Below are positions 25,113 through 45,158 of a DNA stretch of 64,000 nt, in pieces (positions within the stretch are counted from its first letter, which is position 1; each line of letters opens with the position of its first letter). The stretch is taken from the NCBI GenBank assembly GCA_963855995.1, contig OY979727.1, positions 6,343,001 to 6,407,000 on the forward strand. Reading direction: 5' to 3'. The notes below the pieces were generated by a model. The model had not been told where the DNA came from. It searched no databases and worked only from the letters and a program-made list of their open reading frames with translations. Source of the stretch: Muricea muricata (lineage: Eukaryota > Cnidaria > Anthozoa > Malacalcyonacea > Plexauridae). The translations under genes were made by a program, and so were the position numbers.

Positions 25113-25158
25113 CTACAGCTTAAAATCCAAATAACACCTACAGCTTAAAATCCAAACG
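25105..25158. repeat. 25-bp tandem duplication at the centre of the Penelope inverted pair
   Basis: The block AACACCTACAGCTTAAAATC occurs twice back to back (about 25107 and 25131) exactly between the truncated left copy and the longer right copy. This is the junction of the head-to-head structure. Confidence 0.8.
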
Positions 25159-25171
25159 TTGCGCTCCTCCT

Positions 25172-27091: not shown

Positions 27092-27136
27092 ATATAATTG
27101 AGCTATAAAATTTGTGAATAATTAAATAATCTGTCA

Positions 27137-27180
27137 GTTGCCTGATGATCGCCTAAGCGCGTGAAACTCAGAGTAGCGAC
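27137..27180 (+). ncRNA. Hammerhead ribozyme (Penelope-associated)
   Basis: Stem I is GTTGC (27137-27141) pairing with GCGAC (27176-27180). The core is CTGATGA (27142-27148), stem II is C-G, G-C, C-G at 27150-27152/27159-27161 with a six-base loop, then GAAA (27163-27166). Stem III is A-U, C-G, U-A with loop CAG, and the predicted cleavage is after A27175 in a GUA triplet. Penelope-like elements are known to carry short-stem-III hammerheads. The U-U mismatch at the base of stem II is the only weak point. Confidence 0.78.
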
Positions 27181-27200
27181 AGCAAAATTTGCCTTCCTAT

Positions 27201-27344
<144 letters not shown>

Positions 27345-30680: not shown

Positions 30681-30688
30681 TGGTTAAT

Positions 30689-31015
30689 GACCCAAGCTGT
30701 TGAATAAAAAATAACACTTAAAAAATGTAAAGTTTATGTGGGAGAAGGGGTTCTGGGGTAAGAAGACTCCAATTGTACAATGCGTGGCTTCATCCCTACT
30801 CATGTCACATCCTATGCTGCACTGACTCTGAACTGAAAATGCTCTGTAACAGAGCCTTGCCAGGGGTGGCCAATCCCTGACGAAACCTGACCAAGATAAC
30901 AACACTTGGACAGTCCTTAGGCCCCAACCTGTCCAGGGAGCATAAAAACTCCAATGAACAGTCCTTAACCTGACCAAGGGGCGCTAGGCCCCTATGGACA
31001 GTCCTCAGATAGATA
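30689..31015. repeat. Direct repeat A, upstream copy
   Basis: This about 325-bp block begins CCCAAGCTGTTGAATAAAAA and recurs nearly unchanged at 44685-45013, immediately after the Polinton. Internal landmarks are CCTAGGCCCC-like and TGGACAGTCC repeats. The copy shows the unoccupied form of the Polinton insertion site: TAATGACCCAAGCTGTTG. Confidence 0.9.
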
Positions 31016-31705
31016 TTGTATATATGTGACGTATTGAGTCTATGGGGCTGAAGTTGACATTTTAGAGACTTCATCTCGAACCACGTAATTTATTAACGAA
31101 ACCAACAAAATAACTTTCTTTTGTTTTTACACGATTCTATATAGTATGTATTATCTAATTATGATGTTAGTCAGTGAATACTAGAAAATTAATCAATGAG
31201 TTAACTACATTCGACCGTTCCCTTGCACGTGCCTTCGTATATTTATCCACTCTTAGAACAGTGTTTTCGTTGACGGTATCGATATTACATTTCCGTATAT
31301 TTTTCTTTTCTTTTCTTTTTTTTTTGGCTCAAGTTATTTTTTGTAATAACGTTATATGAAGTATATCTACAGTAATGATACTATCGAAAGCTTTCTATTT
31401 TAAGTGACATATGAGGCTTTTGAACGCATTGAAGGTAAACGTAAAAATCGCAAGGCATTGGAAAAACAGTGGTGGGTGGGTGGGAAAATTTTCTTAAACA
31501 AGTTTACTGCACGAGTGCTAACTTGTGAATGGTGGTCCTATGATGTGATCCGCATAATATGCGCAAATACACTGTGCTGGAATAAGCCTTATTATTGGTT
31601 AATTCCCGTCCACACTACAGGAGGTTTTACATGCCTATGCAATCACACGAGCATTTCACGTGAAAGGCATGCAGCTAGACCGAAGTTTTGGCTTCCAGCT
31701 ATTAC
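31016..31705. other. Extra segment between repeat blocks A and B, no gene
   Basis: In the downstream copy, blocks A and B are directly adjacent (…GATATTGTCTATAACTCG at 45010). In the upstream copy about 690 bp separate them. The segment has no coding signal and no clear terminal repeats; it is either an insertion or sequence deleted downstream. Confidence 0.5.
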
Positions 31706-32095
31706 TATAACTCGATAAGACAAGGCGGGATTATCTCATTGACGTACACAGCAAAAAACGCACAACCTGTTCTGGCCTGATGAAAACAGCATTGAACAAT
31801 GTCGTGCTGCCCACATTGTTCAAGGTTGTTAGCAATACTGAACAAGTTGATAAGCCTGAACTAGCCTGCATTCAGGTGTAACAATGTTGAACAATATTGT
31901 TGACAACCTTGAACAATGTGGGCAGCAAAACATGGTTCAATGCTGTTTTCATCAGGCCAGAACAGGTTGTGCGTTTTTTGCTGTGTAGTCGGAAGGAACT
32001 ATCTTTTTGCACCTTTAACATAAAAGCTTACCTTCAACACGTTGCCTCATTAACTTAAATTTATATGAGCTATAAATTTGCTTTAATGACCCAAG
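31706..32095. repeat. Direct repeat B, upstream copy (interrupted by a MITE)
   Basis: The block TATAACTCGATAAGA … GTCGGAAGGAACTATC … TATAAATTTGCT matches 45014-45158 downstream. It ends in the Polinton's left target duplication CCCAAG (32090-32095). The copy is interrupted by a 239-bp MITE at 31747-31985. Confidence 0.85.
31747..31985. mobile_element. Mariner-type MITE with 50-bp inverted repeats, TA duplication
   Basis: The ends are CACAGCAAAAAACGCACAAC and its inverted copy, extended by CTGTTCTGGCCTGATGAAAA, with TA on both sides (31745-31746, 31986-31987). The homologous repeat copy downstream lacks it and reads GACGTAGTCGG at 45051-45061, a precise empty site. The inner half has repeated TTGAACAATGT blocks. 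Confidence 0.92.
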
Positions 32096-32226
32096 AGTAG
32101 AATAGTCACAGCTATAGAACCGCTGAATCAGCATTTTTCACGGAGCTCTTACCCCTGTGAATTAGTTCCCAGGTCATCCGTGTGAGACAGGTGCGCGCGC
32201 ATGTTGACCGGAAATACGTGTAAAAC
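32096..32226 (+). repeat. Polinton left terminal inverted repeat (131 bp)
   Basis: It starts AGTAGAATAGTCACAGCTA and ends ACGTGTAAAAC. It matches the inverted right repeat at 130 of 131 positions by eye; the difference is a C/T in the T-run before ACGGAGCTC. It contains a GTGCGCGCGCATG segment. Confidence 0.95.
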
Positions 32227-32527
32227 CTGTTTTGACTGGTTTGGGCTATTGTTTGAGGGGGGAAACGTCGTATTGTTTGACTTTGGACGACAAAAATCAT
32301 GTTTAAGGCAAACTTGTGGTACATTTATTGAAACTTTGCATTTAGTGTTGTAAAGCGATTATGTTCGAGTCATGTTGATTGTTGTAAATGTTATTTCCCT
32401 GTGAACAGTGAAAGCCTTTTCTTAATTCTTTCTCTTTGTTATCAGTGAAACTAGGATGGACTACGATTAATATTAGATTGTATAATAAACAACTGAGACA
32501 TGTGTAAGATTTATTAAATTTTATTTT

Positions 32528-33114
32528 TCAATTTTGGTCATCTTGATCTCTGGCGAGCATTAGTACTCTATAGAAAAAAAAAAATAAAGAAAAGAGAGAG
32601 CGAGTTAATATATGATGTATGGAAGTTTTAAAACATTGCAGAATTTTCGCATTCTAACCTTAAAAAATCGAACCAGAAGTTCATGTCTTTTAAACGATCG
32701 TCTAGCTCTTGATCTTCAGTGCTGTCAATGAAAAAACCAAAACTGGGTCATTTTTAGGACTTAAAAATTGAGAAGATGTTTATAATCTAAGGATTAAATG
32801 ATAGCAACATGATAAGATTTTACGTACTTGCACGAAGGGCACGCGAATTTCTCTGTGCCCAAAATGAACTGCTCCAAGTTTTCGATTGTTAGCTGGACAT
32901 GGCAGTTTTTACACGTGCTATAGACTGCAAAGGAATGAAAAAGAAAAAAAGTAATTGTCATGTATGGTTAGCTATCTAGTAGAAATTTGAGTGTGTACTT
33001 ACCAATTCCTTCCATTGCAGGAAGCTTCAGTAGTTCTTGACGCTCGGTGTGTTTGAATCGTAATGGTTTTAGCCCAATATTTATGTAGAGAAGGATAGCA
33101 TTGGGTGCTAGCAA
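32528..33114 (-). CDS. Spliced zinc-ribbon gene of unknown function (Polinton left end)
   Basis: Four minus-strand segments join in frame with consensus introns: 33114-33003 (5' limit uncertain), 32924-32828, 32721-32659 and 32567-32528, ending in a TGA. Donors are GTAAGT, GTACGT and GTTAGA; acceptors are T-rich and end in GCAG, ACAG and TATAG. An AATAAA lies about 9 bases after the stop. The product includes PLRFKHTERQELLKLPAMEG, then STCKNCH and, 20 residues later, CPSC, a zinc-ribbon pattern, and an acidic stretch TEDQELDDRLKDMNFWF. I do not recognise the family. The first exon or start is unresolved: the frame is open back to a TAG at 33117-33115, which may itself be an acceptor. Confidence 0.6.
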
Positions 33115-33193
33115 CTAGTGTGTTGTTATGTTTTTGATGATATGTGGGTGATACAGTGTGCATTGTTTACGGTTTATCAATTAGGTTCTCTGT

Positions 33194-34202
33194 GGTACCG
33201 CTAATTACAGAACAACCATTTAAGTTACCTACATTAAATCATTTTTTCGTGGTGCTCCGGTGTGTCTCAAAGTTTCCTGTTGACTTTACGGCGTCGGTTT
33301 GCCAATTATACTGCTTTGTGGTACCGCTATTTACTGAACGACCATTCAAATGCGTGTTTCAAAGTTTCCTGTTGACTTTGCGGGACGGTTTGCCAATTTA
33401 CCTCTGTGATACCGCTAATTACATAACATTGGAAGTCCCACGCGTTTTTTTCAACATGGGAATTAATACTTTGACATTGGACTGGGCATAAAACAGTCAT
33501 GTAAAGGTTTTTTAATTTAGTTTTTAAAAAAGCTAAAAAGAAAAAGGAAAAAACATTTTACGTTGTCTCTATCAGCGAAATATACTTTCGTAAGTTAGTC
33601 CGTGCGATGCTCTAGGATTTTAATCAATTACATGACATTGGAAGTCCCACGCGTTTTTTTCAACATGGGAATTAATACTTTGACATTGGACTGGGCATAA
33701 AACAGTCATGTAGAGGTTTTTTTAATTTAGTTTTTAAAAAAGCTAAAAAGAAAAAGGAAAAAACATTTTACGTTGTCTCTATCAGCGAAATATACTTTCG
33801 TAAGTTAGTCCGTGCGATACTCTAGGATTTTAATCAATTATTCGTGCTGGCGCTAAGCACCAATACATTGTTATCGGTTGTTTCCATTGTGTATTGATCG
33901 GCTTGGGGGCTTGGCTCTATTTCATATCCACTATATTTAGATTGAATTTTTTCAATGCTCTTTGCGGTACCGCTATTTACTGAACAACCATTCAAGTTGC
34001 CTATGCCTTTTCAGTCAGTTTGTCGATTGAATCTTTGTGATAGCTTTGGTCATCATCTAGTTGTGTGAAAGTTTTGCCTGAACATTTTAAAACAGTTTTA
34101 CATCATTTTTTCGTGATACTTCTACTAAACAGCGTGTGCAAAATTTAATTAGACTTTGTAACTTGTAAGCGGTTTGTAAAGCAATTCCTGATGGTACCGC
34201 TA
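33194..34202. repeat. Spaced GGTACCGCTA repeats in the Polinton non-coding region
   Basis: The core GGTACCGCTA occurs at 33194, 33320, 33966 and 34193, and as GATACCGCTA at 33408. Several copies are followed by AATTACAGAACAACCATT or a variant. Linked CTGTTGACTTT and GGTTTGCCAATT blocks show a degenerate higher-order unit of about 90-126 bp. This is the only large region of the element without obvious genes on the plus strand, so a replication or control role is possible but unproven. Confidence 0.75.
33426..33842. repeat. 209-bp tandem duplication inside the Polinton
   Basis: The segment beginning ACATTGGAAGTCCCACGCG at 33426 repeats from 33635 with very few differences (for example GTAAAG/GTAGAG and GATGC/GATAC). 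It is a recent event and falls within the region of GGTACCGCTA repeats. Confidence 0.95.
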
Positions 34203-34434
34203 AGCCGTGTTTGTCGCTTTGTGTTGTTTGAAAGATCATGCCCGGCTTCAAGGACAATACTAGTCTACATTAAATTCTGTGCAGTATTTTTGAGTAATTA
34301 TTGAGGGCTCTTTGTGATCCTGCAAAGTAGAAAAGTACCGAAATTTGTATAGTACTGAAAAGCCGTCATTTAATTAGAGGAAGAAAGTTTACGATTATTT
34401 TCGTTTGACTGAATAACACTGAGAAGGCGGTGTG

Positions 34435-34442
34435 TATATAAA
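34435..34442 (+). promoter_or_regulatory. TATA box of the left GRF gene
   Basis: TATATAAA lies 63 bases before the chosen ATG at 34505, a normal distance for a TATA promoter with a short leader. Confidence 0.6.
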
Positions 34443-34504
34443 CTCAGGATTTGGACTTAGAGCACAGTTGGGTTGTTGCATGTAGGCAACTAGGCACAAT
34501 CAAA

Positions 34505-34966
34505 ATGGTGTCAATTGAGAACTATAAATGTTTTTGTAAGGATGGAGCTCTAGAGCGATTCGAGTCCAAAAAGGGGAGAGGCTTCGTAAAGTGTAGCAAA
34601 GAATTATGCACTCTCTTTGTTCCAGAGGAGAAATATTTGGGTTTGATGGACGCGTATGAGAGGAAGGTCCTTGGAAAATACAAGCCATTCAATTTTCCAA
34701 TGTGCGATTGTGGTGAATCAGCGAGCCTGTGGTTGTCGTACTCTTCAAAGAATCCAAATCGGCCCTATTTCAGATGTCAGGACACTGACCCTGAAGAGAA
34801 GTGCAGCTTTTTCCTGTGGGCTGATAGCGTGTCGAAAATGAAGAAGAGAAAAAGAAAAGCGTGTAGGGAGAAGGAGGGAAAGTCATCAAAAAGAAGTAAA
34901 GGAAATCGGGATCATGGTCCAAGACGTAAAATTGAGTCTTCGAGTGACGAAGATGAACAGAAATAA
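34505..34966 (+). CDS. GRF-type zinc-finger protein (two fingers)
   Basis: The 153-residue protein starts at the ATG at 34505; an upstream in-frame extension has only a TTG and the TATA box supports this start. The second finger is clear: C67-x-C69, then YFRCQ (C91) and CSFFLWAD (C100), the GRF pattern known from topoisomerase III, NEIL3 and related DNA-binding proteins. The first (C9, C11, C30, C35) is a weaker version. The tail is Lys/Arg-rich and ends in an acidic SSDEDE stretch. A nucleic-acid-binding role is inferred. A second GRF gene lies at the opposite end of the element. AATAAA signals follow near 35060. Confidence 0.85.
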   Translation: MVSIENYKCFCKDGALERFESKKGRGFVKCSKELCTLFVPEEKYLGLMDAYERKVLGKYKPFNFPMCDCGESASLWLSYSSKNPNRPYFRCQDTDPEEKCSFFLWADSVSKMKKRKRKACREKEGKSSKRSKGNRDHGPRRKIESSSDEDEQK

Positions 34967-35172
34967 TGTACAATTATATACTTCATCCTTAAAAATATGA
35001 ACAACAGAGAACAGTAAACTTTTTAATTAAGTTAATTATGTTAGTTGATTATGTTGTTTTAATAAAAATATTTGCTAATTCATTCTAATGTTTGCTTGAT
35101 TTTTTATCCAACCCGCAAAAAAAAAAAAAAAAAAACAACAAAAACCAACCTAACCCTAACTCCGTAATATTA

Positions 35173-35931
35173 TTACACTTCAGATGCGTTATAAAGTTCA
35201 ATAGAAGACTGGGATGACGATACTGTTGAATGTTGCGTATTTACAGTTGTTGTTGAAGAACCTATTTGACTCATTTCGATCACTCCTGTGTCTTGCACGT
35301 TCGTTCTTTGTTGGCATCTATGTGTACAAACCCCAAAAATTATAAAACTTAGTAGAAGTATAGGAATAATCGTTGCAATTAAGACAATTTTTGTTTGGTT
35401 ATTATCGGCGAATGACGAGCTTGAATTTGATGGTATCAATACTGTATTTGGGACAGTTTGTGCAGAATCAAAAGCGTTTTTCTTGTTACAACTCCTACAT
35501 TCTTGCTCACGAACAGTATAGCCAAGGTCCATGGCTTTGCTACAACTTGTAGTATGCAAACTGTATTCAACCGATGATGGGTGTATGTATTGTATCTCAC
35601 GGCAGTTGCTTCTGATTTGTATCCTTGACAAAACTAGTTGGCCACACTTTACCGGGTTATCACGGATGTCAACTACAACTACTCCTGGATATAGTTCAAG
35701 GACTTCTTTTTCGGAAATAAAAGGAACATTGTTTCTTCTTAAATCCAACACTGTAATCTTTAATTTTTTATATTTCGCACCAGGCACAGGTATTTGATTA
35801 AATCCTTGATCTGAACAGTCCAGAATCGATGCAAGTTTGCTATATTTGCAAACGGACGTATCCCGGCACATACAGTCGCTAGCAAAAGCGAGAATGAAAA
35901 ACAAACCAAGAAAATACACCAATGTAGTCAT
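35173..35931 (-). CDS. Secreted/membrane leucine-rich-repeat protein
   Basis: I place the start at the ATG at 35931-35929, because a classic signal peptide follows (TTLVYFLGLFFILAFAS), rather than the longer frame to 36075; a TATA box lies 54 bases upstream. The 252-residue product has a Cys-rich LRR N-cap (CMCRDTSVCKY), one or two LRR units (ILDCSDQGF, ITVLDLRRNNVPF, VVVVDIRDNP) and a C-cap-like cysteine set. An Asn/Ser stalk with N-glycosylation sites follows, then one transmembrane helix (residues 181-202) and a Ser/Thr-rich cytosolic tail. It is an apparent type I membrane glycoprotein. LRR membrane proteins are not part of the Polinton core, so it looks like a captured host-type gene; a role at the cell surface or in entry is conjecture. 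Confidence 0.8.
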   Translation of the reverse strand: MTTLVYFLGLFFILAFASDCMCRDTSVCKYSKLASILDCSDQGFNQIPVPGAKYKKLKITVLDLRRNNVPFISEKEVLELYPGVVVVDIRDNPVKCGQLVLSRIQIRSNCREIQYIHPSSVEYSLHTTSCSKAMDLGYTVREQECRSCNKKNAFDSAQTVPNTVLIPSNSSSSFADNNQTKIVLIATIIPILLLSFIIFGVCTHRCQQRTNVQDTGVIEMSQIGSSTTTVNTQHSTVSSSQSSIELYNASEV

Positions 35932-35984
35932 TTTAAGAATAGGACGAAAGGAGCCTGCAACTCTATGACAAGGTGAAATTTCAG

Positions 35985-35991
35985 TTATATA
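35985..35991 (-). promoter_or_regulatory. TATA box of the LRR protein gene
   Basis: On the minus strand TATATAA lies 54 bases before the ATG that begins the signal peptide. It supports that ATG over the upstream in-frame one, because the longer reading would start before the TATA box. Confidence 0.55.
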
Positions 35992-36189
35992 CGGAAATAG
36001 CTGTAGATAAAAATTATATGACATTTTACACTTCAACATGATTGTGTCATTGATGCATGCGATAAAAGACCACACATGTTCAGATAATGGTTTTGATGAC
36101 AGCCATTTTATTGGTCATTTTAAAAGATGTATATATCATTGCACACATATATACGGTTTTTTTCATTTGAGACTGTGGTGGACTTAAGT

Positions 36190-36831
36190 ATGGACGTCCG
36201 ATTTAAAACACCAGCAAATTTTTACATTAGCGGGCAAAGTCAATGTGGCAAATCATACTTAGTGCGGTGTATGCTTCGCAATCTTAATGAATTGTTTGAT
36301 CCTGTCCCGTCAAGGATAATTTATTGTTATGGTGAATATCAACATGCATTTGATGATATGGTTCAAACAATACCTAATATCTATTTTACTGAAGGATTTC
36401 CGGATAATTTGTATGGCATTTTGGAAGGTTACCAAAATTCGTTAGTTATAATCGACGATCTCATGTCAGAGTGTTCAAAAGACCAACGTATTTCAGATTT
36501 GTTTACTCGCGGTTCACATCATCAGGGAATATCTGTCATGTATCTCACTCAAAACTTATTCCCTCCTGGTAAACAATCGAGGACTATAAGCTTAAACTCA
36601 CACTATATGATTGTTTTTAAAAATCCTAGGGACTCCCTAGGCGTTTCGACCTTGGCGCGTCAAATGTATCCACACAATTGCAACTTCCTGCTAGAATCGT
36701 ATCAAGATGCCACCAAAAAGCCTCACGGCTACTTATTAATGGACTTGCACCAATGCACGCCCGAAAATATGAGATTGCGAACAAATATCTTACCGCACGA
36801 GCAACAGATCGTGTATGTCAAGCGTACATAA
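36190..36831 (+). CDS. A32-like genome-packaging ATPase (FtsK/HerA superfamily)
   Basis: Taking the ATG at 36190, the protein is 213 residues. Walker A is GQSQCGKS (15-22) and Walker B is LVIIDDLM (85-92); a later GISVMYLTQNLF resembles the conserved polar Gln motif of this superfamily. The length and arrangement match the packaging ATPases of Polintons, which pump genomes into capsids. It is transcribed divergently from the LRR gene and followed after 39 bp by the next gene in the same direction. The frame is intact with all motifs present. Confidence 0.93.
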   Translation: MDVRFKTPANFYISGQSQCGKSYLVRCMLRNLNELFDPVPSRIIYCYGEYQHAFDDMVQTIPNIYFTEGFPDNLYGILEGYQNSLVIIDDLMSECSKDQRISDLFTRGSHHQGISVMYLTQNLFPPGKQSRTISLNSHYMIVFKNPRDSLGVSTLARQMYPHNCNFLLESYQDATKKPHGYLLMDLHQCTPENMRLRTNILPHEQQIVYVKRT

Positions 36832-36870
36832 ATCAACATCTAGGCTAGGTTAAATCATTTAGGGTCAAAC

Positions 36871-37200
36871 ATGTCTAAGCGAATGAAGGACAATTTGGCT
36901 TACCTACAAATACTCGCTAAATGTAAACCTAAAATTAGGAAAGTCATTATAGATCATGGCCCTGCAGACGTTTTAATGTGCGTTTGCGAATGTTGTTATA
37001 ACTTGTTAAAAGGTACAGTTCCACTAACCCCAACTCAAAAGCGACGTTTGTCACGATACAAGGAACATCTCCGAGCGTTGGCAGACAAGAAAGTTTCGCG
37101 CGTAAAAAAACGACGAATCTTAAATCAGAAAGGCGGAAACCTGTTGGCTGCGTTATTACCACCAGTACTGTCAGTATTAGGAAGTTTATTCATAAAATGA
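36871..37200 (+). CDS. Small basic Polinton protein with hydrophobic C-terminus
   Basis: This 109-residue protein has a helical N-terminal part (SKRMKDNLAYLQILAKCKPK), a Cys cluster (CVCECCYNLL), a basic linker (VKKRRILNQ), then KGGNLLAALLPPVLSVLGSL as a hydrophobic end. The hydrophobic tail after a Gly-Gly suggests a membrane-active or virion-processed peptide such as adenoviral pVI/pX; that is a guess by analogy. Its stop overlaps the next start by four bases (ATGA), which argues for linked expression. Confidence 0.65.
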   Translation: MSKRMKDNLAYLQILAKCKPKIRKVIIDHGPADVLMCVCECCYNLLKGTVPLTPTQKRRLSRYKEHLRALADKKVSRVKKRRILNQKGGNLLAALLPPVLSVLGSLFIK

Positions 37201-37922
37201 AGCATGCCAAAAGAATGATTTTGGTTCCAGAAGACGTGTATGCTAGATTTGAACAAAAACAAAAAATTGAAAGCTCGCCCCTGGTTAAGAATATGATGAA
37301 TTCTGATCGAGAGATGTCAGATGTTCTTCAACGGACGGATATACCAGACAGTGAAAAACAAAAACTATATAACGCTAATTTGGAACGTTACATGAGTCTT
37401 CAACAACAAAAGGACAGTCAGATCCCAAAAGTTCGCTTGGCAACGAGTGAAAAAAGCGAGGACGAGAACAATTCCACTCAAGAAACGATACCTTTACCAG
37501 ACTTTGCTATCGTGGACAGTATGCCAAAAACAAAGCGACAAAAAGCTACGTCAATTTTAAATCGGTTGAAGACACGACCTGACATTATTTCCTGGGACGA
37601 ATCTGGACGCGTCACTCTCGAAGGTGTAAAAGTCCCAGGTTCTAATATATCTGACCTGTTGAGTGACGCCGTGAAAGGACGTAAAAACTTTAATCCTGCT
37701 GGCTCGAAAAGGTTTTTTAATGTCTTATCAAAAATTAATATGCCCAAAGATCTTGTCCGAAATGAAGAGAGATGGAAACAATCCGAAATAGACAATTCTC
37801 ATGGTGAAGAAGTAGAAGACGAAAGCTCTCAATCCGCTACCCCGTCGAAATATTTCCGTAGTCTTGTACAAAGACACGAAGCAAAAAAAAAACCAACACA
37901 AACTTCCTGGCTAAAATATTAA
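37197..37922 (+). CDS. Conserved Polinton protein of unknown function
   Basis: The 241-residue protein starts in the ATGA overlap. It has VPEDVYARFEQKQKIESSPL near the N-terminus, followed by a Glu/Gln-rich helical stretch to about residue 70 (DSEKQKLYNANLERYMSLQQ). A central region follows with LNRLKTRPDIISWDESGRVT and LEGVKVPGSNISDLLSDAVK, and a basic C-terminus (LVQRHEAKKKPTQ). The central part recalls short segments often seen in Polinton-derived proteins of marine invertebrates, but I cannot name a function. Coiled-coil and disordered character would fit a scaffold or structural role. Confidence 0.65.
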   Translation: MKHAKRMILVPEDVYARFEQKQKIESSPLVKNMMNSDREMSDVLQRTDIPDSEKQKLYNANLERYMSLQQQKDSQIPKVRLATSEKSEDENNSTQETIPLPDFAIVDSMPKTKRQKATSILNRLKTRPDIISWDESGRVTLEGVKVPGSNISDLLSDAVKGRKNFNPAGSKRFFNVLSKINMPKDLVRNEERWKQSEIDNSHGEEVEDESSQSATPSKYFRSLVQRHEAKKKPTQTSWLKY

Positions 37923-37939
37923 TCTTAATGTTTCATGTT

Positions 37940-37949
37940 AATAAATAAA
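37940..37949 (+). terminator. Polyadenylation signals of the rightward genes
   Basis: Two overlapping AATAAA hexamers lie 18 bases after the stop of the 37197-37922 gene, facing the leftward unit. The convergent spacing is only 120 bp. Confidence 0.7.
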
Positions 37950-38020
37950 CATTTTAAAAAATCTTTTTCTTGTGATTTTATTTATGTGTTAATGCAAGAC
38001 AAGACATTGGTTTAAAAACA

Positions 38021-38026
38021 TTTATT
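38021..38026 (-). terminator. Polyadenylation signal of the leftward capsid unit
   Basis: TTTATT on the plus strand is AATAAA for the leftward transcript and lies 16 bases beyond the protease stop codon. Confidence 0.7.
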
Positions 38027-38041
38027 GATTAAAGTACTACA

Positions 38042-38581
38042 TTATTTCCAAAACATCTTTTTACTAGACTGATTAAAATTATCGTTTGCCTGCTTTGGCA
38101 CTACTTTGAAATGATTCTTAACGAACTGAGATACTTTTACATCATTTGACATTGTATCCTTACTAAAAAACTGTACGATTTTATTCATGCTATGTCCCCT
38201 TGCTCTATGGCTAAGATAAAATATACAGTACTGCCCACACACATCGGACCAAGAACTTTGCAGTTTACGTTTATTAAAGTCCCACTCGCTCGAATGTTTA
38301 TCTAGAAAGTGTTCAAATGAACTACTATAGTAAGATGGTGGCTGTCCAAAGCTGTCAAAAAACTGTCCGCTAACTGCGTTTTGTTGACCGTTCTGTTCTT
38401 CTGTAAAAAAAAACGCTAACCAGTGACTACCTATCTCACTGCTAGGATCTGTGTTTGCAATCAATCCACACGGAAACTTGTCAATTCTTTCAGGTAACTT
38501 ATCACGGGGAAACACACCACAAAACCTCTTTCTTGTTACAGAGTCTTGTTCCAAAGCATGGACTATCTGAATAGTGTTCAT
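38042..38581 (-). CDS. Adenain-like cysteine protease (Polinton PRO)
   Basis: The 179-residue protein shows the adenovirus-type/Ulp1 catalytic set in order: His53 in SHWLAFFF, Asp76 in GQFFDSFGQPP, a Gln at 107 (KLQSSW) as oxyanion residue, and the nucleophile Cys114 in SDVCGQYCIFYL. These enzymes process virion precursor proteins. Its ATG is directly adjacent to the stop of the major capsid gene, with no gap. All catalytic residues are present and the length is normal for the family. Confidence 0.93.
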   Translation of the reverse strand: MNTIQIVHALEQDSVTRKRFCGVFPRDKLPERIDKFPCGLIANTDPSSEIGSHWLAFFFTEEQNGQQNAVSGQFFDSFGQPPSYYSSSFEHFLDKHSSEWDFNKRKLQSSWSDVCGQYCIFYLSHRARGHSMNKIVQFFSKDTMSNDVKVSQFVKNHFKVVPKQANDNFNQSSKKMFWK

Positions 38582-39904
38582 TTAGCCAGAGTAGTCATAA
38601 ATGACGTTCCTTTCTGCATCAATTTGAATCAGATTTTCAAATTCTCCATAACACACGATACTCACGGCTGCTGCCGGTGCAGTTGAGAACTTGATGTCAA
38701 CTGTCAAATTTCCTCTTTGAACTGTACTGAAATGGGGTGACGACCCACACATATCGGCGGTCAGGTCAAAGGCAAAAATTGCATTTCCATTTGAAAACTC
38801 ATCTCGCGATATATCGTTTCCCATGTTGTAATACATCTTCCCCGTGCCGGAAAAAAGCGTAGAAAACGCCTCAATAAACCTTTTGTTTGCACCAAAGGAG
38901 AGTTGAATCGGTTTAAACGGTACTGCTTCTCCATTCACGGATAATGCAACAGATGACATGTTAAAGTGTTGAAAATTGTACGGATTTTTCTTGTACGCCC
39001 CGTTAAACGCCTCGCTCTCGACTAATCCGAAGACGAATGTTTTCGGTACAAGTCCACTAAAGACGTTATCTTTCACCAAGGATGGATTCCCGGCTGGAAT
39101 AATGAAACTCTTGCACTCGACGCGACGTATGGGGTAGATTGCTGGTCCTTTTTTCAATGCAATTTCGTGAGCCATGGTGATGCTAGGGTTTACTTTAACT
39201 TTACGTATTTTAAGATAGGCCTCGGTTAGTTTGACTCTGTGATCAGCGTCATCCACAGATGACATCAAACAAAACTCATGTCCATTTCGATTCAACACAA
39301 CTTTTAGATCGACAAAGCTGAGTAGCAGTCGTTCAGTAAAAAATACGTCGCAAAATATCGGACCAGCCAGCTCTATCACTCCACTTGTTTTGCTAAACTG
39401 GTATCTCGCTTTAAGACCTTTGTTGCCGTCTACAGCAGTAGGATCTGCCACTTCCATTTTCCCTGCAGTATCTTTGTAAAACAAGGCTGCAGTGAGCTGA
39501 GACTTTTTAGCGGAAGGACCATAATTGAGGAGGGTTTCGAGATACGATCGGTAGCTATAGGTGCCCATAGCCTGTGTTACTTGCTTCTCTTTCAAATAGA
39601 CATCGACTTGTTTAAACAGACTATGAAGGAAATTGTTCACGACCCCAACCTTCTCACCCGCGTCGAGGTCTGCGCCATCAGCTTTCGTCACTTTTGCTCT
39701 CACCACGAGAATTGTTTTTGATAAGTCAATATAATCTTCCGTTCCTGGCGACAAAAAAGTAATGGGGCCACTTTCTGTTACACTGGAAACAGGTTGGTGG
39801 TCTATCCAATGTCCCTTTTCCAAACTTACTTGTGTTGGAGGCATGGAAAATAAATCAAGCTCACTTTTTGTGCACTCTTGCGACTTTGAATGTACGAAAT
39901 TCAT
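38582..39904 (-). CDS. Major capsid protein, double jelly-roll (Polinton PY)
   Basis: The 440-residue frame is intact. Typical Polinton/adintovirus hexon landmarks are seen: ESGPITFLSPGTEDYIDLSK near residue 45, a VNNFLHSLFKQVDVYLKEKQ segment near residue 89, YRSYLETLLNYGPSAKKSQL, and a C-terminal half with FVFGLVESEAFNGAYKKNPY. The order fits two jelly-roll domains that build pseudo-hexameric capsomers. It sits between the pX-like gene (2-bp gap) and the protease (0-bp gap). The N-terminal and C-terminal ends are those expected, so there is no truncation. The assignment rests on these motifs and on the flanking virion genes. Confidence 0.9.
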   Translation of the reverse strand: MNFVHSKSQECTKSELDLFSMPPTQVSLEKGHWIDHQPVSSVTESGPITFLSPGTEDYIDLSKTILVVRAKVTKADGADLDAGEKVGVVNNFLHSLFKQVDVYLKEKQVTQAMGTYSYRSYLETLLNYGPSAKKSQLTAALFYKDTAGKMEVADPTAVDGNKGLKARYQFSKTSGVIELAGPIFCDVFFTERLLLSFVDLKVVLNRNGHEFCLMSSVDDADHRVKLTEAYLKIRKVKVNPSITMAHEIALKKGPAIYPIRRVECKSFIIPAGNPSLVKDNVFSGLVPKTFVFGLVESEAFNGAYKKNPYNFQHFNMSSVALSVNGEAVPFKPIQLSFGANKRFIEAFSTLFSGTGKMYYNMGNDISRDEFSNGNAIFAFDLTADMCGSSPHFSTVQRGNLTVDIKFSTAPAAAVSIVCYGEFENLIQIDAERNVIYDYSG

Positions 39905-39906
39905 AT

Positions 39907-40389
39907 TTAACCAAATATATCTTCGGCACGAGTTGTTCTCCGCTTCTTGGACTGACTGCTTCTGGCAGTAGACGTTGATGCCTTTCTCTTTTTAGCAGTT
40001 GTTCTCCGTTTCGTTGTCCGACTGGTAGATCTTTTTTTAGTCCGTTTTCCACTTCCTGTTTGAGCAAAAGTCTTAAGACGATTAATGGCTTTATCTCTTG
40101 CATCGCTTACGGCCTCTTTTCCACGAGTTTTTATTGCCTGTTTCAAATCTTTACCGGAAGAAACATCCATAAGCACATTTGCCCCAGCGTTCAGTGCACT
40201 TTTACCAAGGGCTTTCGCACCACTTTTAACCATTGGCATAACAGCTCTTGCAAGGCTCCTAAAAAGTCCTCCTAAACCGAATCCAACTTGACCATAACCA
40301 CGCATCCAGGGAGTTCCCGTAAAGACGGGCATTCCGTGTCCTTGTTGCTGGCCCATGTAGTAACGTACGTACTGATCTGTTTTAGTCAT
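39907..40389 (-). CDS. pX/pVI-like basic minor virion protein
   Basis: The 160-residue protein has a Tyr/Gly-rich start (RYYMGQQQGHGM), a GFGLGGLFRSLARAVMPMVK amphipathic stretch near residues 36-55, an Ala-rich helix and a strongly basic Lys/Arg/Ser/Thr tail. A Gly-Gly followed by an amphipathic helix and a basic tail is the layout of adenovirus pVI/pX-type core and lytic proteins and of their adintovirus counterparts. The GLGG could be a processing site for the neighbouring protease (inference). It is packed with 2-3 bp gaps between the two capsid genes. Confidence 0.75.
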   Translation of the reverse strand: MTKTDQYVRYYMGQQQGHGMPVFTGTPWMRGYGQVGFGLGGLFRSLARAVMPMVKSGAKALGKSALNAGANVLMDVSSGKDLKQAIKTRGKEAVSDARDKAINRLKTFAQTGSGKRTKKRSTSRTTKRRTTAKKRKASTSTARSSQSKKRRTTRAEDIFG

Positions 40390-40392
40390 TGT

Positions 40393-41148
40393 TTATGCAA
40401 AATACGATGAACTCTGCTGCTTAAAATGTAGTGTCACTAACACCTTCCCACGTTCAAATGGTACAGGTTTACCTGTATCATCTCTTAATATAATCTCAAT
40501 GTCCTCAAAAGATTTCGTTTGAACGGTCACATACTGTATGTTGGTAAACGTTTTCGCGACAACTTCGCCCATTTTTCCTTGCACGGGAACGCTTTTAATC
40601 AGTTTGGCATTTGTATCCCCAACAACCTGAGGCTGTACAATATCACAATAAAAATATATCATCGCTGTGCCGTTCAAGTCAGCGACATATGGACTCGTAG
40701 TTGTTTTTGTAATTTTTATTTCCTCTCCACCAAATCCCAAAATAATAGACAATCGCCCCATTAAAACCAATTGGTGACTATTCTTTACATGAACAGTTAC
40801 TTTTTCAGTTCGAGCATTATACGTTAGTCTAATGTTGTCATTTCCTGTGTTTCTTTTTAATGCCGCATTGACCGATTTCACAAGATCAGCCATCGTGCCA
40901 AAATAGCCATAGTCAACTATTGCCGTTTGAAAAATCAAACCGTCTTCACTGTAGTAAATGTGATTCTCATGGTTTTGTAAAGTATACCACGTAATTGGAT
41001 AAGAGATAGAGTATAAACCCACTTCCCAATCACCATTCAAATCAATGGCTTGTGGCAACTTTACACGATAACTAGTCGTCTTGTTATCGGGAAAGATATT
41101 TAAGGACGAGTTGCTTGGAAGCGTAAGATAAAAATGTGACCCACTCAT
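40393..41148 (-). CDS. Minor capsid (penton-like) protein (Polinton PX)
   Basis: The 251-residue protein begins SGSHFYLTLPSNSSLNIFPD and continues TTSYRVKLPQAIDLNGDWEV with GLYSISYPITW. This beta-rich N-terminal pattern (LPSNSS...N..Y...LP..I.L.G.WEVGL) is typical of Polinton minor capsid proteins that occupy the vertices. The rest is predicted beta-strand rich (YFYCDIVQPQVVGD) without helices. It is first in the tightly packed virion cluster, 38 bp after the integrase gene stop. Confidence 0.85.
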   Translation of the reverse strand: MSGSHFYLTLPSNSSLNIFPDNKTTSYRVKLPQAIDLNGDWEVGLYSISYPITWYTLQNHENHIYYSEDGLIFQTAIVDYGYFGTMADLVKSVNAALKRNTGNDNIRLTYNARTEKVTVHVKNSHQLVLMGRLSIILGFGGEEIKITKTTTSPYVADLNGTAMIYFYCDIVQPQVVGDTNAKLIKSVPVQGKMGEVVAKTFTNIQYVTVQTKSFEDIEIILRDDTGKPVPFERGKVLVTLHFKQQSSSYFA

Positions 41149-41186
41149 TGTGAATTACAGACAAGAATAACATGACAACTACACAC

Positions 41187-42284
41187 TCAAGAGTTTAAAA
41201 CATTTATTTCAGAAGCATTTACCCATGAATTAAACTTGTTAGGATAACCTAACCATTTTACAAGATATTGTACTTTACTTCCCCTCCCGCGTTTTTTAAG
41301 AATTTTTTCCACCTCGTAGACATCATCGTCTTTGACAACCTTTTGCAGCTCTTTATCGTAAAACGTTCCTTTAAGTTCCTCCCCGTCATAGTCTTTTAGT
41401 TTGTAGACGGGAGGGTCTCTTGGTAATCTTTTACTTACAACAAATATCTCGGTAGAAAAGTTTGGCAAATAAGATTTCTCAAATTTACGTTTAAGTTTAC
41501 TTATTCGTACCTTGTCTCCAACCTTAAACTTATACTTTACAGGTTGTACGTTATCAAAAAAGCTATCGTATAGCGTATGAAAGACATCGTCCTCATTTTC
41601 TGTGTTGACAAGTGCGGGTTTCATCTTTATACTCCTATGTCGACTATGATTGTAAGAATAGACCAAGTCGGGTAACATTTCTAGATATCTCATCGTTTTC
41701 TTTGCCGTAAAATAATGCCACATCTTTGACTTAAATGTACGAATGACCCTTTCCACAATAGAGGCCTTTGTCTCGTTGAACGTATTGAAAAGTTGAATAT
41801 CTTCATTCTTCAACAATGCTTGAAATGATTTGTTGAAAAATTCTGTTCCCTGGTCTGTCATGATCTTTTGGGGTTTTCTGCCCGAAGCTAGAATTACTTT
41901 AAAAGCTTCAACTATGGCAGGACCTGTTTTTGACTTGATTGGAACTATCCACGCATACTTAGAGAATACATCTATACAGACGAGCAAATATCTATATTCA
42001 TCGTTATACTGTTTCAAAGACTGCATGTCTGCTAAATCCATTTGCCACTCTTCGTCTATACCTCCCACAATTACACGATTCCTCCTAAAGTTTCGACGAG
42101 CTGGTTTATGTAAAGTATAAGTATCTTGACTCAATAACCAGTCTGAAATTTGTTTCCGACTTAATTTAAACTTTTCCTCCTGCTTTACATCACGGTATAA
42201 ACTTTCAATTCCTCCGAAACTTCCTGGACGTTTTGGATCATAATAAACACTTTTTAAGTACTCCTCAACTGTTGACTGGTCCAT
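41187..42284 (-). CDS. Retroviral-type DDE integrase with chromodomain (Polinton INT)
   Basis: The 365-residue protein has the rve core with D83 (WQMDLADMQ), D144 (IMTDQGTEFF) and E178 (KASIVERVIRTFK); I count 33 residues between the second Asp and Glu. The KASIVER motif is characteristic of Polinton integrases. A helical N-terminal part (to about residue 60) replaces an obvious HHCC finger. An SH3-like segment (KFKVGDKVRISKLKRKFEKS) and a C-terminal chromodomain (YEVEKILKKRGRG...YLVKWLGYP...SWVNASEI) follow. The enzyme joins the element ends to the target and produces the 6-bp duplication. All catalytic residues are intact. An AATAAA signal lies near its stop at 41199-41204. Confidence 0.94.
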   Translation of the reverse strand: MDQSTVEEYLKSVYYDPKRPGSFGGIESLYRDVKQEEKFKLSRKQISDWLLSQDTYTLHKPARRNFRRNRVIVGGIDEEWQMDLADMQSLKQYNDEYRYLLVCIDVFSKYAWIVPIKSKTGPAIVEAFKVILASGRKPQKIMTDQGTEFFNKSFQALLKNEDIQLFNTFNETKASIVERVIRTFKSKMWHYFTAKKTMRYLEMLPDLVYSYNHSRHRSIKMKPALVNTENEDDVFHTLYDSFFDNVQPVKYKFKVGDKVRISKLKRKFEKSYLPNFSTEIFVVSKRLPRDPPVYKLKDYDGEELKGTFYDKELQKVVKDDDVYEVEKILKKRGRGSKVQYLVKWLGYPNKFNSWVNASEINVLNS

Positions 42285-42334
42285 GCCTTCTTTTTTAATG
42301 AAACATACGAAAAAGTGTACCAGTGTTATAAAAA

Positions 42335-42580
42335 TTAGTTTTCTGTCTCGGTAGATTGATCATCCGGTTCAGTCACTGCCGAAGATATATTTTCTGGTAG
42401 GTCTAACTGCTTGTCAATAGGGCCGTAGTTTTTAATTGTTTTACTGTTGTACCCCATTTGCAAGTGACCTTCCAAATTTAAATCGTTACGGCCAAAACTT
42501 ACACCCAATTTAAACATTTTCTGTCTGCTATGATTTTTGTCTCTTTTGGTTTTATCACTCTTGCTAAGACAAGTTCCCAT
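42335..42580 (-). CDS. Small putatively N-myristoylated protein
   Basis: Starting at the ATG at 42580, the 81-residue protein begins GTCLSKSDKTKRDKNHS after the Met, a good N-myristoylation signal (Gly2, Ser6) with a Cys for palmitoylation and a basic stretch. This layout is typical of inner-membrane-leaflet proteins. An in-frame ATG at 42646 would add a hydrophobic leader (LLFFFILLGLL), giving an alternative reading as a signal-anchored protein. The C-terminus is acidic. No homologue is recognised. Confidence 0.5.
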   Translation of the reverse strand: MGTCLSKSDKTKRDKNHSRQKMFKLGVSFGRNDLNLEGHLQMGYNSKTIKNYGPIDKQLDLPENISSAVTEPDDQSTETEN

Positions 42581-42662
42581 GTTACCTCTTGCAAGCAGAC
42601 CGAGTAAAATGAAGAAAAACAACAAAACAGTACGTTTTAAAATCATTTATTTCTTTGGTAGA

Positions 42663-43142
42663 TTACACTGTGTAGTTATATTTTAATTTACACACGCATA
42701 GAACATAGTCAATTAGATTGTTGATAAATGTTGTTCTCTCGAGTTCAGAATACCTCTGAAACCAAGCGAAACATGTCATATCGAATAGTGCCTCGAAGTA
42801 ATCTCTATGGATCGCTGACGGTTCAGGATACTTCAAAATCTTGCAAGCTTCAACGACACCTTTCCACATAACATCATGGTCTAGCAGATCAAGAGCTCGC
42901 TCAGCATAGTATATCCAGCGTTCTTCATCATCGAGGGCCTCAATGCGCTTTCGAAACCGTGTCCACGGTCTACCGTAATCCTCATCTTGTTTGACCTGTG
43001 CAGCTTCTTCTTCCAATTGATGTATCTTACGATAGACCATCTCCGTGAACACAAAATCTATCAGTTTCTCAACAGTCAAGGCATCAAAGTCAATTTCACA
43101 CTCATACATTTGTTTAAACAGGTGTGCCATAATTCTCTTCAC
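42663..43142 (-). CDS. Polinton accessory protein of unknown function
   Basis: The 159-residue, mostly helical, acidic protein (ATG at 43142 or, four codons in, at 43130) has KLIDFVFTEMVYRKIHQLEE and EERWIYYAERALDLLDHDVM stretches. No domain is recognised. It stops 17 bp before the next leftward gene and its polyadenylation signal (AATAAA on the minus strand, about 42650) lies in that gap. Its direction and spacing suggest one of a series of leftward early or accessory genes. Confidence 0.6.
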   Translation of the reverse strand: MKRIMAHLFKQMYECEIDFDALTVEKLIDFVFTEMVYRKIHQLEEEAAQVKQDEDYGRPWTRFRKRIEALDDEERWIYYAERALDLLDHDVMWKGVVEACKILKYPEPSAIHRDYFEALFDMTCFAWFQRYSELERTTFINNLIDYVLCVCKLKYNYTV

Positions 43143-43349
43143 GTTCTTTAGACCAACTGTTCACAAGCACACTTACCAAATAGACTAACGTGATCATGAT
43201 GATCTCGTCTCTTTTAAGTCATGTAAACCAGACAAACCAGTTTTTCAAATGTATGAATATGAACAAACATGTTTATTGATATACGTCATAATAAATTAAC
43301 AACAAAGATATACATTGCAATGAAAAGCTTTATTCAAGAAAATATAATG

Positions 43350-43781
43350 TTACAATTGTTCAAGAGTCTCTTTTTTAAGCAACCATCTCTCGTTTGCAAA
43401 GAACACTGATCGCCAATCATAACAAGTGTACTTCAGTAACTCTAGTCCATTCACCCTTGGTTTGATATCGTTTAAACTGTTCATAAAGTTCTCCATAACT
43501 CTTGCTTCAGATATTTTTGATAACGCATCATCAAAGTACATTGACAATCTTTCATCACTTTCCATCATAAGACAAGGATGCTGTCTTTGTGATGGATGAT
43601 CAATGATGCAGCCGTTGCAATTTTCGACAACCAGTTGGTTAATGACTGAGGCAATTTCTTCCGCATAGCACTTTATCAGTCTCTCTTCAATTAATTTCTG
43701 ACGGTGGCTTAAAAACCTTTCTTCATTACCAATGTCAGTAGGTAGAGTCAAGTTGGATCGACGAGCAGACATTTTAAACAC
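43350..43781 (-). CDS. Polinton accessory protein with Cys/His cluster
   Basis: The 143-residue protein has a helical N-terminal part (LSHRQKLIEERLIKCYAEEI), then CNGCIIDHPSQRQHPCL, a compact Cys-x2-Cys...His...His-x-Cys cluster that could bind zinc. The C-terminus ends FFANERWLLKKETLEQL. I have an impression of similar clusters in other Polinton-linked ORFs but cannot name a function. AATAAA on the minus strand lies near 43330. Confidence 0.6.
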   Translation of the reverse strand: MFKMSARRSNLTLPTDIGNEERFLSHRQKLIEERLIKCYAEEIASVINQLVVENCNGCIIDHPSQRQHPCLMMESDERLSMYFDDALSKISEARVMENFMNSLNDIKPRVNGLELLKYTCYDWRSVFFANERWLLKKETLEQL

Positions 43782-43869
43782 GACTTTTCACTTGAACAGC
43801 TAAAGTAATAATGGCGCAGTTTGTACCAAATGTTTCTTAATAGTCTAGACATAATTAGCATAACCTGTT

Positions 43870-44475
43870 TTACAAGTTCTCTTTCTTTGTTTTAAGGGAC
43901 AAGTACTCCTTGCAAGCTTCGATGCGATTCTCATGACGGCTTGTGAAATTTTCGCCAGTCTCCTTAACCGTATACCCGTGCGAAGGAGGGTTGCTAAAAC
44001 ACACAGTGGAAAATGGTTCGAACGGGTCTTCGTCTTCTTTTTTATCTCTCCACTCAAAATAGCTGCACGATTCGTCTTTACCTTTCGAACAGGTATAAAA
44101 CAAACGACCATAATTAGTGCCCTCTTTCTTGACCTTTCTCGTTGAACATTGCTCACCATGATAACATAGGGGCCTAATAACATCACCCCATTGCCAAAAC
44201 GAGCACGGCTTTTCTTTATCCGAGCAAACGAAAAATGGCCGGCCAAAACTAGGTTTAAAAATATCTTTCACGACTAACATTTTAGTTAGCTTCTTGTGAC
44301 CGTGGCATCTTGGCTGTAACGAGTTCGAATTTCTCCACATTGCAATAGCATTTTCAAAATAACTGCAATCATTCTGGGGGCAAAAGAAATTACAGCTAGG
44401 CTTTTGCCCACAATAAAAAAATAAACCATTTTCGGTTTTGGAAGAGGACGCCGGCTTTCCATGTAGACACTCCAT
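43870..44475 (-). CDS. GRF zinc-finger protein with three fingers
   Basis: The 201-residue protein has three successive GRF-like fingers with Cys-x-His...Cys...Cys ligands: C3/H5/C22/C28 (or C32), C57/H59/C84/C91 (FFVCSDKEKPCSFWQWGD) and C104/H106/C129/C137 (LFYTCSKGKDESCSYFEWRD). The ATG at 44475 lies 34 bases after a TATA box at 44509-44515, just inside the right terminal repeat. A broken copy of its first finger occurs at 18365-18525. The binding of single-stranded or structured DNA known for GRF fingers would suit a replication or repair role (inference). Confidence 0.85.
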   Translation of the reverse strand: MECLHGKPASSSKTENGLFFYCGQKPSCNFFCPQNDCSYFENAIAMWRNSNSLQPRCHGHKKLTKMLVVKDIFKPSFGRPFFVCSDKEKPCSFWQWGDVIRPLCYHGEQCSTRKVKKEGTNYGRLFYTCSKGKDESCSYFEWRDKKEDEDPFEPFSTVCFSNPPSHGYTVKETGENFTSRHENRIEACKEYLSLKTKKENL

Positions 44476-44508
44476 AATTCTGATTATCTCGTTCGCCGAC
44501 GGCCGCTT

Positions 44509-44515
44509 TTTTATA
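44509..44515 (-). promoter_or_regulatory. TATA box of the right GRF gene
   Basis: TATAAAA on the minus strand lies 34 bases before the ATG and 38 bases inside the right terminal repeat, so transcription starts next to the element end. Confidence 0.6.
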
Positions 44516-44553
44516 GTATTGCCTTAAAAACCAGTTAGACAAGTTTTTTTCTA

Positions 44554-44684
44554 GTTTTACACGTATTTCCGGTCAACATGCGCGCGCACCTGTCTCACAC
44601 GGATGACCTGGGAACTAATTCACAGGGGTAAGAGCTCCGTAAAAAATGCTGATTCAGCGGTTCTATAGCTGTGACTATTCTACT
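44554..44684 (-). repeat. Polinton right terminal inverted repeat (131 bp)
   Basis: It is the inverted copy of the left repeat, ending GTGACTATTCTACT at 44684 and followed by the second CCCAAG. One substitution separates it from the left repeat. Confidence 0.95.
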
Positions 44685-45158
44685 CCCAAGCTGTTGAATA
44701 AAAAATAACACTTAAAAAATGTAAAGTTTATGTGGGAGAAAGGGTTCTGGGGTAAGAAGACTCCAATTGTACAATGCGTGGCTTCATCCCTACTCATGTC
44801 ACATCCTATGCTGCACTGATTCTGAACTGAAAATGCTCTGTAACAGAGCCTTGCCAGGGGTGGCCAATCCCTGACGAAACCTGACCAAGATAACAACACT
44901 TGGACAGTCCTTAGGCCCCAACCTGTCCAGGGAGCATAAAAACTCCAATGAACAGTCCTTAACCTGACCAAGGGGCGCTAGGCCCCTATGGATAGTCCTC
45001 AGATAGATATTGTCTATAACTCGATAAGATAAGACGGGATTATCTCATTGACGTAGTCGGAAGGAACTATCTTTTCGCACCTTTAGCATAAAAGCTTACC
45101 TTCAACACGTTGCCTCATTAACTTAAATTTATATAAGCTATAAATTTGCTATAATAAA
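44685..45158. repeat. Direct repeats A and B, downstream copy
   Basis: Block A (44685-45013) and block B (45014-45158) are adjacent here, in the order also seen at 30689-31015 and 31706-32095. The target site of the Polinton is at the junction between the first B and the second A of this tandem array. The TA empty site of the upstream MITE is at 45054-45055. Confidence 0.85.

Follow-up and report, generated by a model that had tools for sequence, protein, structure and literature searches.

The Maverick/Polinton element at positions 32096–44684 of a 64,000-nt stretch of the Muricea muricata genome (hereafter, the window) is, we conclude with high confidence, one copy of an ordinary multi-copy family that lost its DNA polymerase gene (PolB) through one deletion. 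Most likely, it is a Polinton of the ordinary type that this deletion made non-autonomous. The initial annotation had described an open element without PolB, and this description was borne out: The terminal inverted repeats (TIRs) differ at one of 131 positions (position 44, C/T), the target site duplication (TSD) is perfect, 14 open ORFs lie between the ends, and a six-frame scan for a polymerase came back empty.

The 12.6-kb element has the boundaries expected of a Maverick/Polinton, with TIRs, AG...CT ends (here AGTAGA...TCTACT), and a 6-bp TSD. A paralogous empty site inside the window (30691–31024) is 98.8% identical to the right flank (44685–45018), and there TTAATGACCCAAGCTGTTG is uninterrupted by any element. 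The genes are open and follow the Maverick order, as listed below with the flanking features.

32090–32095, no strand: left copy of the TSD, CCCAAG
32096–32226, plus strand: left TIR, 131 bp, starting AGTAGAATAG
32227–34450, no strand: left subterminal region, mostly non-coding
32628–33015, minus strand: possible gene of three exons encoding a 67-aa protein that has two CxxC pairs (weak; found by eye)
34505–34966, plus strand: GRF zinc-finger protein 1, 153 aa from the first ATG (Pfam Zn_ribbon_GRF, 5.1e-08)
35108/35109, no strand: deletion junction with a 1-bp overlap (comparison with the C4 sibling)
35173–36039, minus strand: LRR-like single-pass membrane protein, 288 aa (ORF; domain read by eye)
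36127–36831, plus strand: putative packaging ATPase of FtsK/HerA type (weak; gene order as in vertebrate Mavericks in the available sections of PMC8097293)
36871–37200, plus strand: 109-aa ORF at the place of Maverick pm (gene order)
37197–37922, plus strand: 241-aa ORF at the place of Maverick pz (gene order)
38042–38581, minus strand: putative adenain/Ulp1-like cysteine protease (weak; PDB S273R, E 0.02; gene order)
38582–39904, minus strand: putative major capsid protein of 440 aa, F54H12.2-like family (relatives and gene order)
39907–40389, minus strand: basic 160-aa protein (ORF) at the place of Maverick pw (gene order)
40393–41148, minus strand: 251-aa protein (ORF) at the place of the minor capsid (penton) protein (gene order)
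41187–42284, minus strand: retrovirus-like integrase (Pfam rve, 8.2e-13) with a chromodomain (3.8e-11)
42335–42646, minus strand: ORF with an internal ATG at 42580 giving an MGTCLSK start, which we take to be N-myristoylation-like
42663–43130, minus strand: 155-aa protein (ORF)
43350–43772, minus strand: 140-aa protein (ORF)
43870–44475, minus strand: GRF zinc-finger protein 2, with two GRF domains (Pfam, 2.8e-19, two stretches)
44554–44684, minus strand: right TIR, 131 bp
44685–44690, no strand: right copy of the TSD, CCCAAG

Matches above the Pfam cut-offs were obtained for the integrase, its chromodomain, and the GRF fingers. The retrovirus-like integrase typical of Maverick/Polintons is therefore present, and its catalytic residues D83, D144, and E178 are invariant across 19 aligned sequences. 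By sequence alone, support for the ATPase, protease, and capsid assignments is weak, and their main basis is the gene order. The ATPase protein weakly matched Pfam AAA_16 (E 0.0041) and an FtsK entry in PDB (E 0.0059), and its position fits; it also matched Pfam RNA_helicase below the cut-off (0.0072), which we read as probably its P-loop. The capsid protein had 2391 relatives in a protein database search, and four of 25 family members showed a weak DJR-like_dom match (best 0.011); comparison of the capsid with PDB sequences, by sequence and by profile, gave no meaningful match, nor did the putative minor capsid protein have a PDB match by sequence. A Pfam scan of the LRR-like protein returned nothing above cut-off; the protein is kept in the siblings C4 (95%) and C1:1.05M (98%–99%, interrupted there). 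The left subterminal region holds direct repeats (two units ∼210 bp apart and shorter ones). Both introns of the possible 67-aa gene have GT/AG borders, and the surrounding region (32601–33060) is 97.8% identical in C4.

When the sequence between the TIRs was scanned with Pfam in all six frames (split into three stretches, stops being read as X), no polymerase, helicase, or primase was detected. The library itself was capable of finding the gene: In a positive control, it detected DNA_pol_B_2 in both of the siblings tested (3.5e-46 and 2.2e-45). A tblastn search of the whole window with a sibling polymerase as query gave no match at E 1e-3. We considered an intact PolB concealed by introns and rejected it, as exon matches were absent in every frame. 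The window copy is accordingly without the protein-primed family-B polymerase that characterizes Maverick/Polintons.

The missing gene was found in siblings in the same genome. A search of the 453-Mb M. muricata genome with the terminal repeat revealed many copies with the same ends; 40 matches were scored and listed among 273 candidates, and these 40 included 16 facing repeat pairs, counting that of the window copy (12 of the 16 were covered by the sibling reading). The ATPase had at least 151 matches in the genome. At 90% identity or more there were 25 ATPase copies (one partial), of which nine were read in addition to the window copy. The longer, PolB-bearing siblings that the initial annotation suggested looking for were found: All nine ATPase-bearing copies fetched carry a family-B polymerase between the left end and the ATPase, with an open frame in three. 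The matching Pfam model is a general viral/organellar PolB model, and the protein-primed type is taken from the Maverick context. The polymerase-bearing form is about 15–17 kb long, with the polymerase adjoining the ATPase. Two siblings that are 98.5%–100% identical to the window copy over 36.1–44.7 kb both keep PolB at the usual place, and at least one sibling, C1:16.9M, combines an open polymerase frame with ends 99%–100% identical to the window's.

A comparison with C4, the closest sibling at the left end, located the loss. The window sequence matches C4 up to 35108 and resumes 4991 bp further on, and this single missing stretch contains PolB. The suggested place for the gene (32227–34430) was thus slightly off. 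Among 22 matches to the junction across the genome, 19 covered only the left side, two only the right side, and one, the window itself, spanned it. Together with PolB in nine of nine siblings and the single 4991-bp block, this unique junction supported the proposal that PolB was lost in one event from a recently mobile element. The comparison shows the loss of one block containing the whole polymerase gene at a junction with a 1-bp overlap, probably by end-joining. Both TIRs remain, as do the genes for capsid, protease, ATPase, and integrase. As the window copy makes no polymerase of its own, any mobility it still has would depend on polymerase supplied in trans, and C1:16.9M could provide such help.

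The competing proposal, that the element represents a true polymerase-free lineage replicated by the host polymerase, draws its only support from the fact that the window copy has no PolB, helicase, or primase. We consider it barely credible, because the two near-identical siblings keep PolB in the usual place and the left breakpoint falls within sequence that runs on in C4; on this comparison we rejected host replication for the window copy. The second option of the initial annotation, a lineage without polymerase or a satellite of a new kind, was not supported: The outcome it had named as refuting was obtained for the siblings read, which carry PolB upstream of the ATPase. An assembly error, in which the block was dropped while near-identical copies were being assembled, is also very improbable. 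The family is large, its copies are similar, and a run of A adjoins the junction, all of which could favor such an error; however, the host flanks are coherent, the copy has its own TSD, the junction has a 1-bp overlap and not a long repeat, and both of its sides differ from C4 by ∼1%–5%.

A variant of the deletion explanation, compatible with it, places the loss in a replicating genome, after which the 12.6-kb form would have been replicated, packaged, and integrated as a satellite with a sibling's polymerase. The perfect TSD and near-identical repeats of the window copy are consistent with this, as is the fetched sibling with an open polymerase and nearly the same ends. Further PolB-less, repeat-bounded derivatives with perfect 6-bp duplications exist elsewhere in the genome, two of them with one common structure; this suggests that elements have moved in trans within the genome. 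On the other hand, the window's junction occurs at a single site, and a deletion after insertion accounts for everything with one step fewer; we therefore regard the satellite variant as possible but rather unlikely. Among the elements with the same ends was a 17.7-kb element encoding a papillomavirus-E1-like helicase and no recognized Polinton gene. More speculatively still, there may be a pool of derivatives that keep the terminal repeats but have no polymerase and that full siblings replicate and integrate in trans; the window copy, which has its own capsid and integrase genes, would be one member, and the E1-like-helicase element would stand at the far end.

Under the preferred explanation of a deleted copy of an ordinary family, the open capsid and integrase genes, with their few amino-acid changes, would reflect recent activity of the family and probably not selection by a polymerase-free life cycle. 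Between the window copy and C1:16.9M, seven genes differed by 19 synonymous and seven non-synonymous substitutions (pN/pS 0.10), and between the window copy and C4, six genes differed by 31 and 17, respectively (pN/pS 0.15). Selection was uneven: Against C4, GRF protein 2 had five non-synonymous and two synonymous changes, and the pw-place protein had three and two. The polymerases of C1:16.9M and C2:28.97M differed by five non-synonymous and two synonymous changes.

We compared the element with known systems, as these are described in the available sections of the cited papers. In vertebrate Maverick/Polintons (Barreat and Katzourakis 2021, PMC8097293), the modules pPolB-ATPase-PM-PZ and INT-mCP-PW-MCP-PRO face the center, and the elements have terminal repeats, 6-bp target duplications, and AGT-type ends. 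The window element shares this two-module order, with pPolB alone missing; it differs in its 12.6-kb deleted form and in adding two GRF proteins, the LRR membrane protein, and small ORFs. According to the same source, degradation affects 96% of the vertebrate loci, which makes defective copies the usual case. Adintoviruses, as defined in the part of PMC11071296 available, have a PolB with an OTU-like domain and a hexon recognizable by BLASTP; the window element resembles them in its chromodomain integrase and its capsid and protease genes but, without PolB, falls outside the definition. Polinton-like viruses use a different replication gene instead of pPolB (PMC11071308, in part), whereas in the window element the six-frame scan found neither a helicase or primase nor a polymerase of another type. 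In the portions available of Bellas et al. (2023, PMC10120064), the main Maverick-Polinton cluster takes in all metazoan capsid genes except the cnidarian ones, and many elements are without a detectable polymerase gene. Unlike for those cnidarian Maverick-like viruses, a deletion accounts for the lack in the window copy, and siblings with PolB occur in the same genome.

Searches of wider collections added little. No relatives were confirmed in IMG/VR by capsid protein or integrase, and none were found in phage records by capsid (E 1e-2) or integrase (E 1) or in plasmid records by integrase (E 1e-8). Against PHROGs (eight ORFs), the integrase matched transposase families, and the others gave weak matches to unknowns. 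Capsid and integrase relatives apparently lie on the same contigs, as matched by equal size (e.g., 17,403 and 30,449 bases), including a Dendronephthya scaffold of 2,634,848 bases; this linkage has no bearing on PolB. In the literature on polymerase-less elements, cnidarian Mavericks, and F54H12.2 (covering few subscription papers), we found no description of this family.

The locus can be explained without a polymerase-free self-packaging transposon, which closes that larger claim, and claims of this kind are testable through siblings in the same genome. The element, with its clear boundaries, exemplifies a Maverick family that looks recently active in what is probably an octocoral, a family in which polymerase-bearing, deleted, and cargo-bearing copies have common ends.

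The insertion at window 32096-44684 is complete, with 131-bp terminal repeats that differ at one position and a perfect 6-bp target duplication, both as stated in the initial annotation. The host flank at 44685-45018 occurs a second time at 30691-31024 (98.8% identity), and this second copy is the same site without the insertion. Repeats, target duplication and uninterrupted second site cannot have come together by chance. The host sequence around the insertion is present in two copies (30683-32095 and 44685-45155), as if a tandem duplication had predated the insertion; ∼680 bp and a 243-bp palindrome (31745-31987) occur in the left copy only. Elsewhere in the window, an inverted repeat (23312-27209; 1,792-bp arms, 100% complementary, 314 bp apart) carries twice a reverse-transcriptase-like ORF (560 and 639 aa), presumably Penelope-like.

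The ends, target duplication, integrase and gene order are those of a Maverick/Polinton. The left module runs inward from a repeat-rich, mostly non-coding stretch through a GRF zinc-finger gene and an LRR-like membrane-protein gene (opposite strand) to the ATPase, followed by two ORFs at the Maverick pm and pz places. The right module, on the opposite strand, runs inward through a second GRF gene, three small ORFs, an integrase with chromodomain, the minor capsid and pw positions, the capsid and the protease. Sequence evidence is strong only for the integrase and the GRF domains; for the ATPase, protease and capsid it is weak, and these assignments lean on gene order. Two minus-strand features stood out:

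32628-33015, minus strand: possible three-exon gene with GT/AG introns, whose 67-aa product would contain two CxxC pairs
42335-42646, minus strand: ORF with an internal start at 42580 and N-terminus MGTCLSK

MGTCLSK resembles a myristoylation signal and, with the LRR membrane protein, suggests membrane-linked functions. The three-exon gene, if real, would be unusual: according to PMC8097293, intact vertebrate Mavericks have genes without introns. The two-module order described in that paper is that of our element, apart from its missing polymerase and extra genes. The capsid had 2391 relatives among 8000 protein database candidates scored, and the top 120 include three named organisms (Dendronephthya, Xenia and Paramuricea), all of them octocorals, which suggests an octocoral host. 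Bellas et al. (PMC10120064) set cnidarian capsids apart.

A six-frame profile search between the repeats (three stretches, stops as X) recovered no polymerase, helicase or primase; the ATPase protein gave a below-cut-off match to an RNA-helicase model (0.0072). The same library detected sibling polymerases at 3.5e-46 and 2.2e-45, bearing out the reported lack of PolB, and a sibling polymerase used as query had no match in the window.

This lack had been attributed either to loss in one event or to a polymerase-free lineage, possibly a satellite of full Polintons. We searched the genome (453 Mb, 74 contigs, the window on C12) for siblings. Of 273 candidates for the terminal repeat, 40 were scored and are listed as matches; 32 of these make up 16 facing pairs that measure 7.2 to 21.9 kb end to end, the window's own included. 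The ATPase had at least 151 matches, among them a distant group (∼42% identity) embedded in open reading frames that reach 1,900 aa (e.g., C1:31675597-31676211 and C10:9099491-9100105). Twenty stretches were fetched, then two more; with the window, these cover ten of 25 ATPase copies with ≥90% identity (one of the 25 partial) and 12 of the 16 repeat pairs. A family-B polymerase lay between left end and ATPase at all nine ATPase-bearing loci fetched; three of the frames are open (C1:16.9M, 1310 aa; C4, 1308 aa; C7, 1313 aa) and the other six interrupted. In four other elements bounded by the repeats, neither an ATPase nor a polymerase match was found.

The two repeats of the C4 copy (17,381 bp; target duplication GGTGTC) mismatch at 27 of 131 positions when compared without gaps, so siblings are not uniformly as young-looking as the window element. 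Identity between C4 and the window is 95.4 to 98.6% up to 35108 and 97.7% in the 1.5 kb past the junction, where a single block of 4,991 bp of C4, containing the polymerase, is missing from the window. The junction sides share a 1-base overlap, and an adjoining run of A is also found, somewhat shorter, in C4. Among all 22 genome matches to a 300-bp junction query, each scored, the window alone spans the junction; 19 end at the left edge (within one base) or earlier and two cover the right side only. The C4 comparison and junction matches thus establish, as far as the assembly shows, a single loss private to the window copy, and the reading as a polymerase-free lineage gives way to this plainer one. 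Most likely, a normal Maverick would have inserted and lost its polymerase block afterwards or just before. Its ends, target duplication, integrase and gene order are those of a Polinton, and the polymerase present in siblings is missing; the element is therefore a defective Polinton copy, not self-sufficient. Bellas et al. (PMC10120064) describe many endogenous elements without detectable polymerase, and Barreat and Katzourakis (PMC8097293) give 96% of vertebrate Maverick loci as degraded.

Other elements share or resemble the ends:

C10:10665173-10672587 (L028): short element without PolB, 7.4 kb
C10:9746121-9754351 (L029): short element without PolB, 8.2 kb
C3:39862304-39869484 (L030): related ends (94%), 7.2 kb, duplication GCTGGT
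G000:C25:190044-207708 (L013, L014; ends also L001, L002): 17,665-bp element, duplication TACAGT

L028 and L029 have the window element's ends, keep its right-hand gene block (42244-44684) and share one structure over most of their interior (97.5-98% identity in the main aligned blocks, 91% in one), each with its own 6-bp duplication (GATAAG and AGGCAG). They seem to be a non-autonomous form that has multiplied, and their shared structure suggests that PolB-less derivatives other than the window copy move. The L030 interior resembles parts of L028, with no window-element genes seen at the DNA level. The C25 element carries the window's 131-bp repeats (100% at either end), and ∼1.2-2.5 kb at each end resembles the Polinton left end; none of the window element's genes was recognized in it. 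Its 961-aa protein matches a papillomavirus-E1-like/SF3 helicase (8.1e-06, just below the Pfam cut-off) and has 72 relatives, those named being from Paramuricea, Dendronephthya and Clytia; a 544-aa protein gave weak matches only.

The family looks recently active. Against C1:16.9M, seven genes differ by 19 synonymous and seven non-synonymous changes (pN/pS 0.10); against C4, six genes differ by 31 and 17 (pN/pS 0.15). Genes vary singly, the synonymous excess being missing in GRF2 and PW versus C4 and in PolB of C1:16.9M versus C2:28.97M. In 1-kb bins, the left part of the window copy is nearest C4 and the part from ∼39 kb nearest C1:16.9M and C2:28.97M (up to 100%), so the copy looks mosaic among the siblings fetched. 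The C1:16.9M polymerase frame is open and the ends of that sibling match the window's at 99-100% identity, so it could, judging from these sequences, help the window copy in trans.
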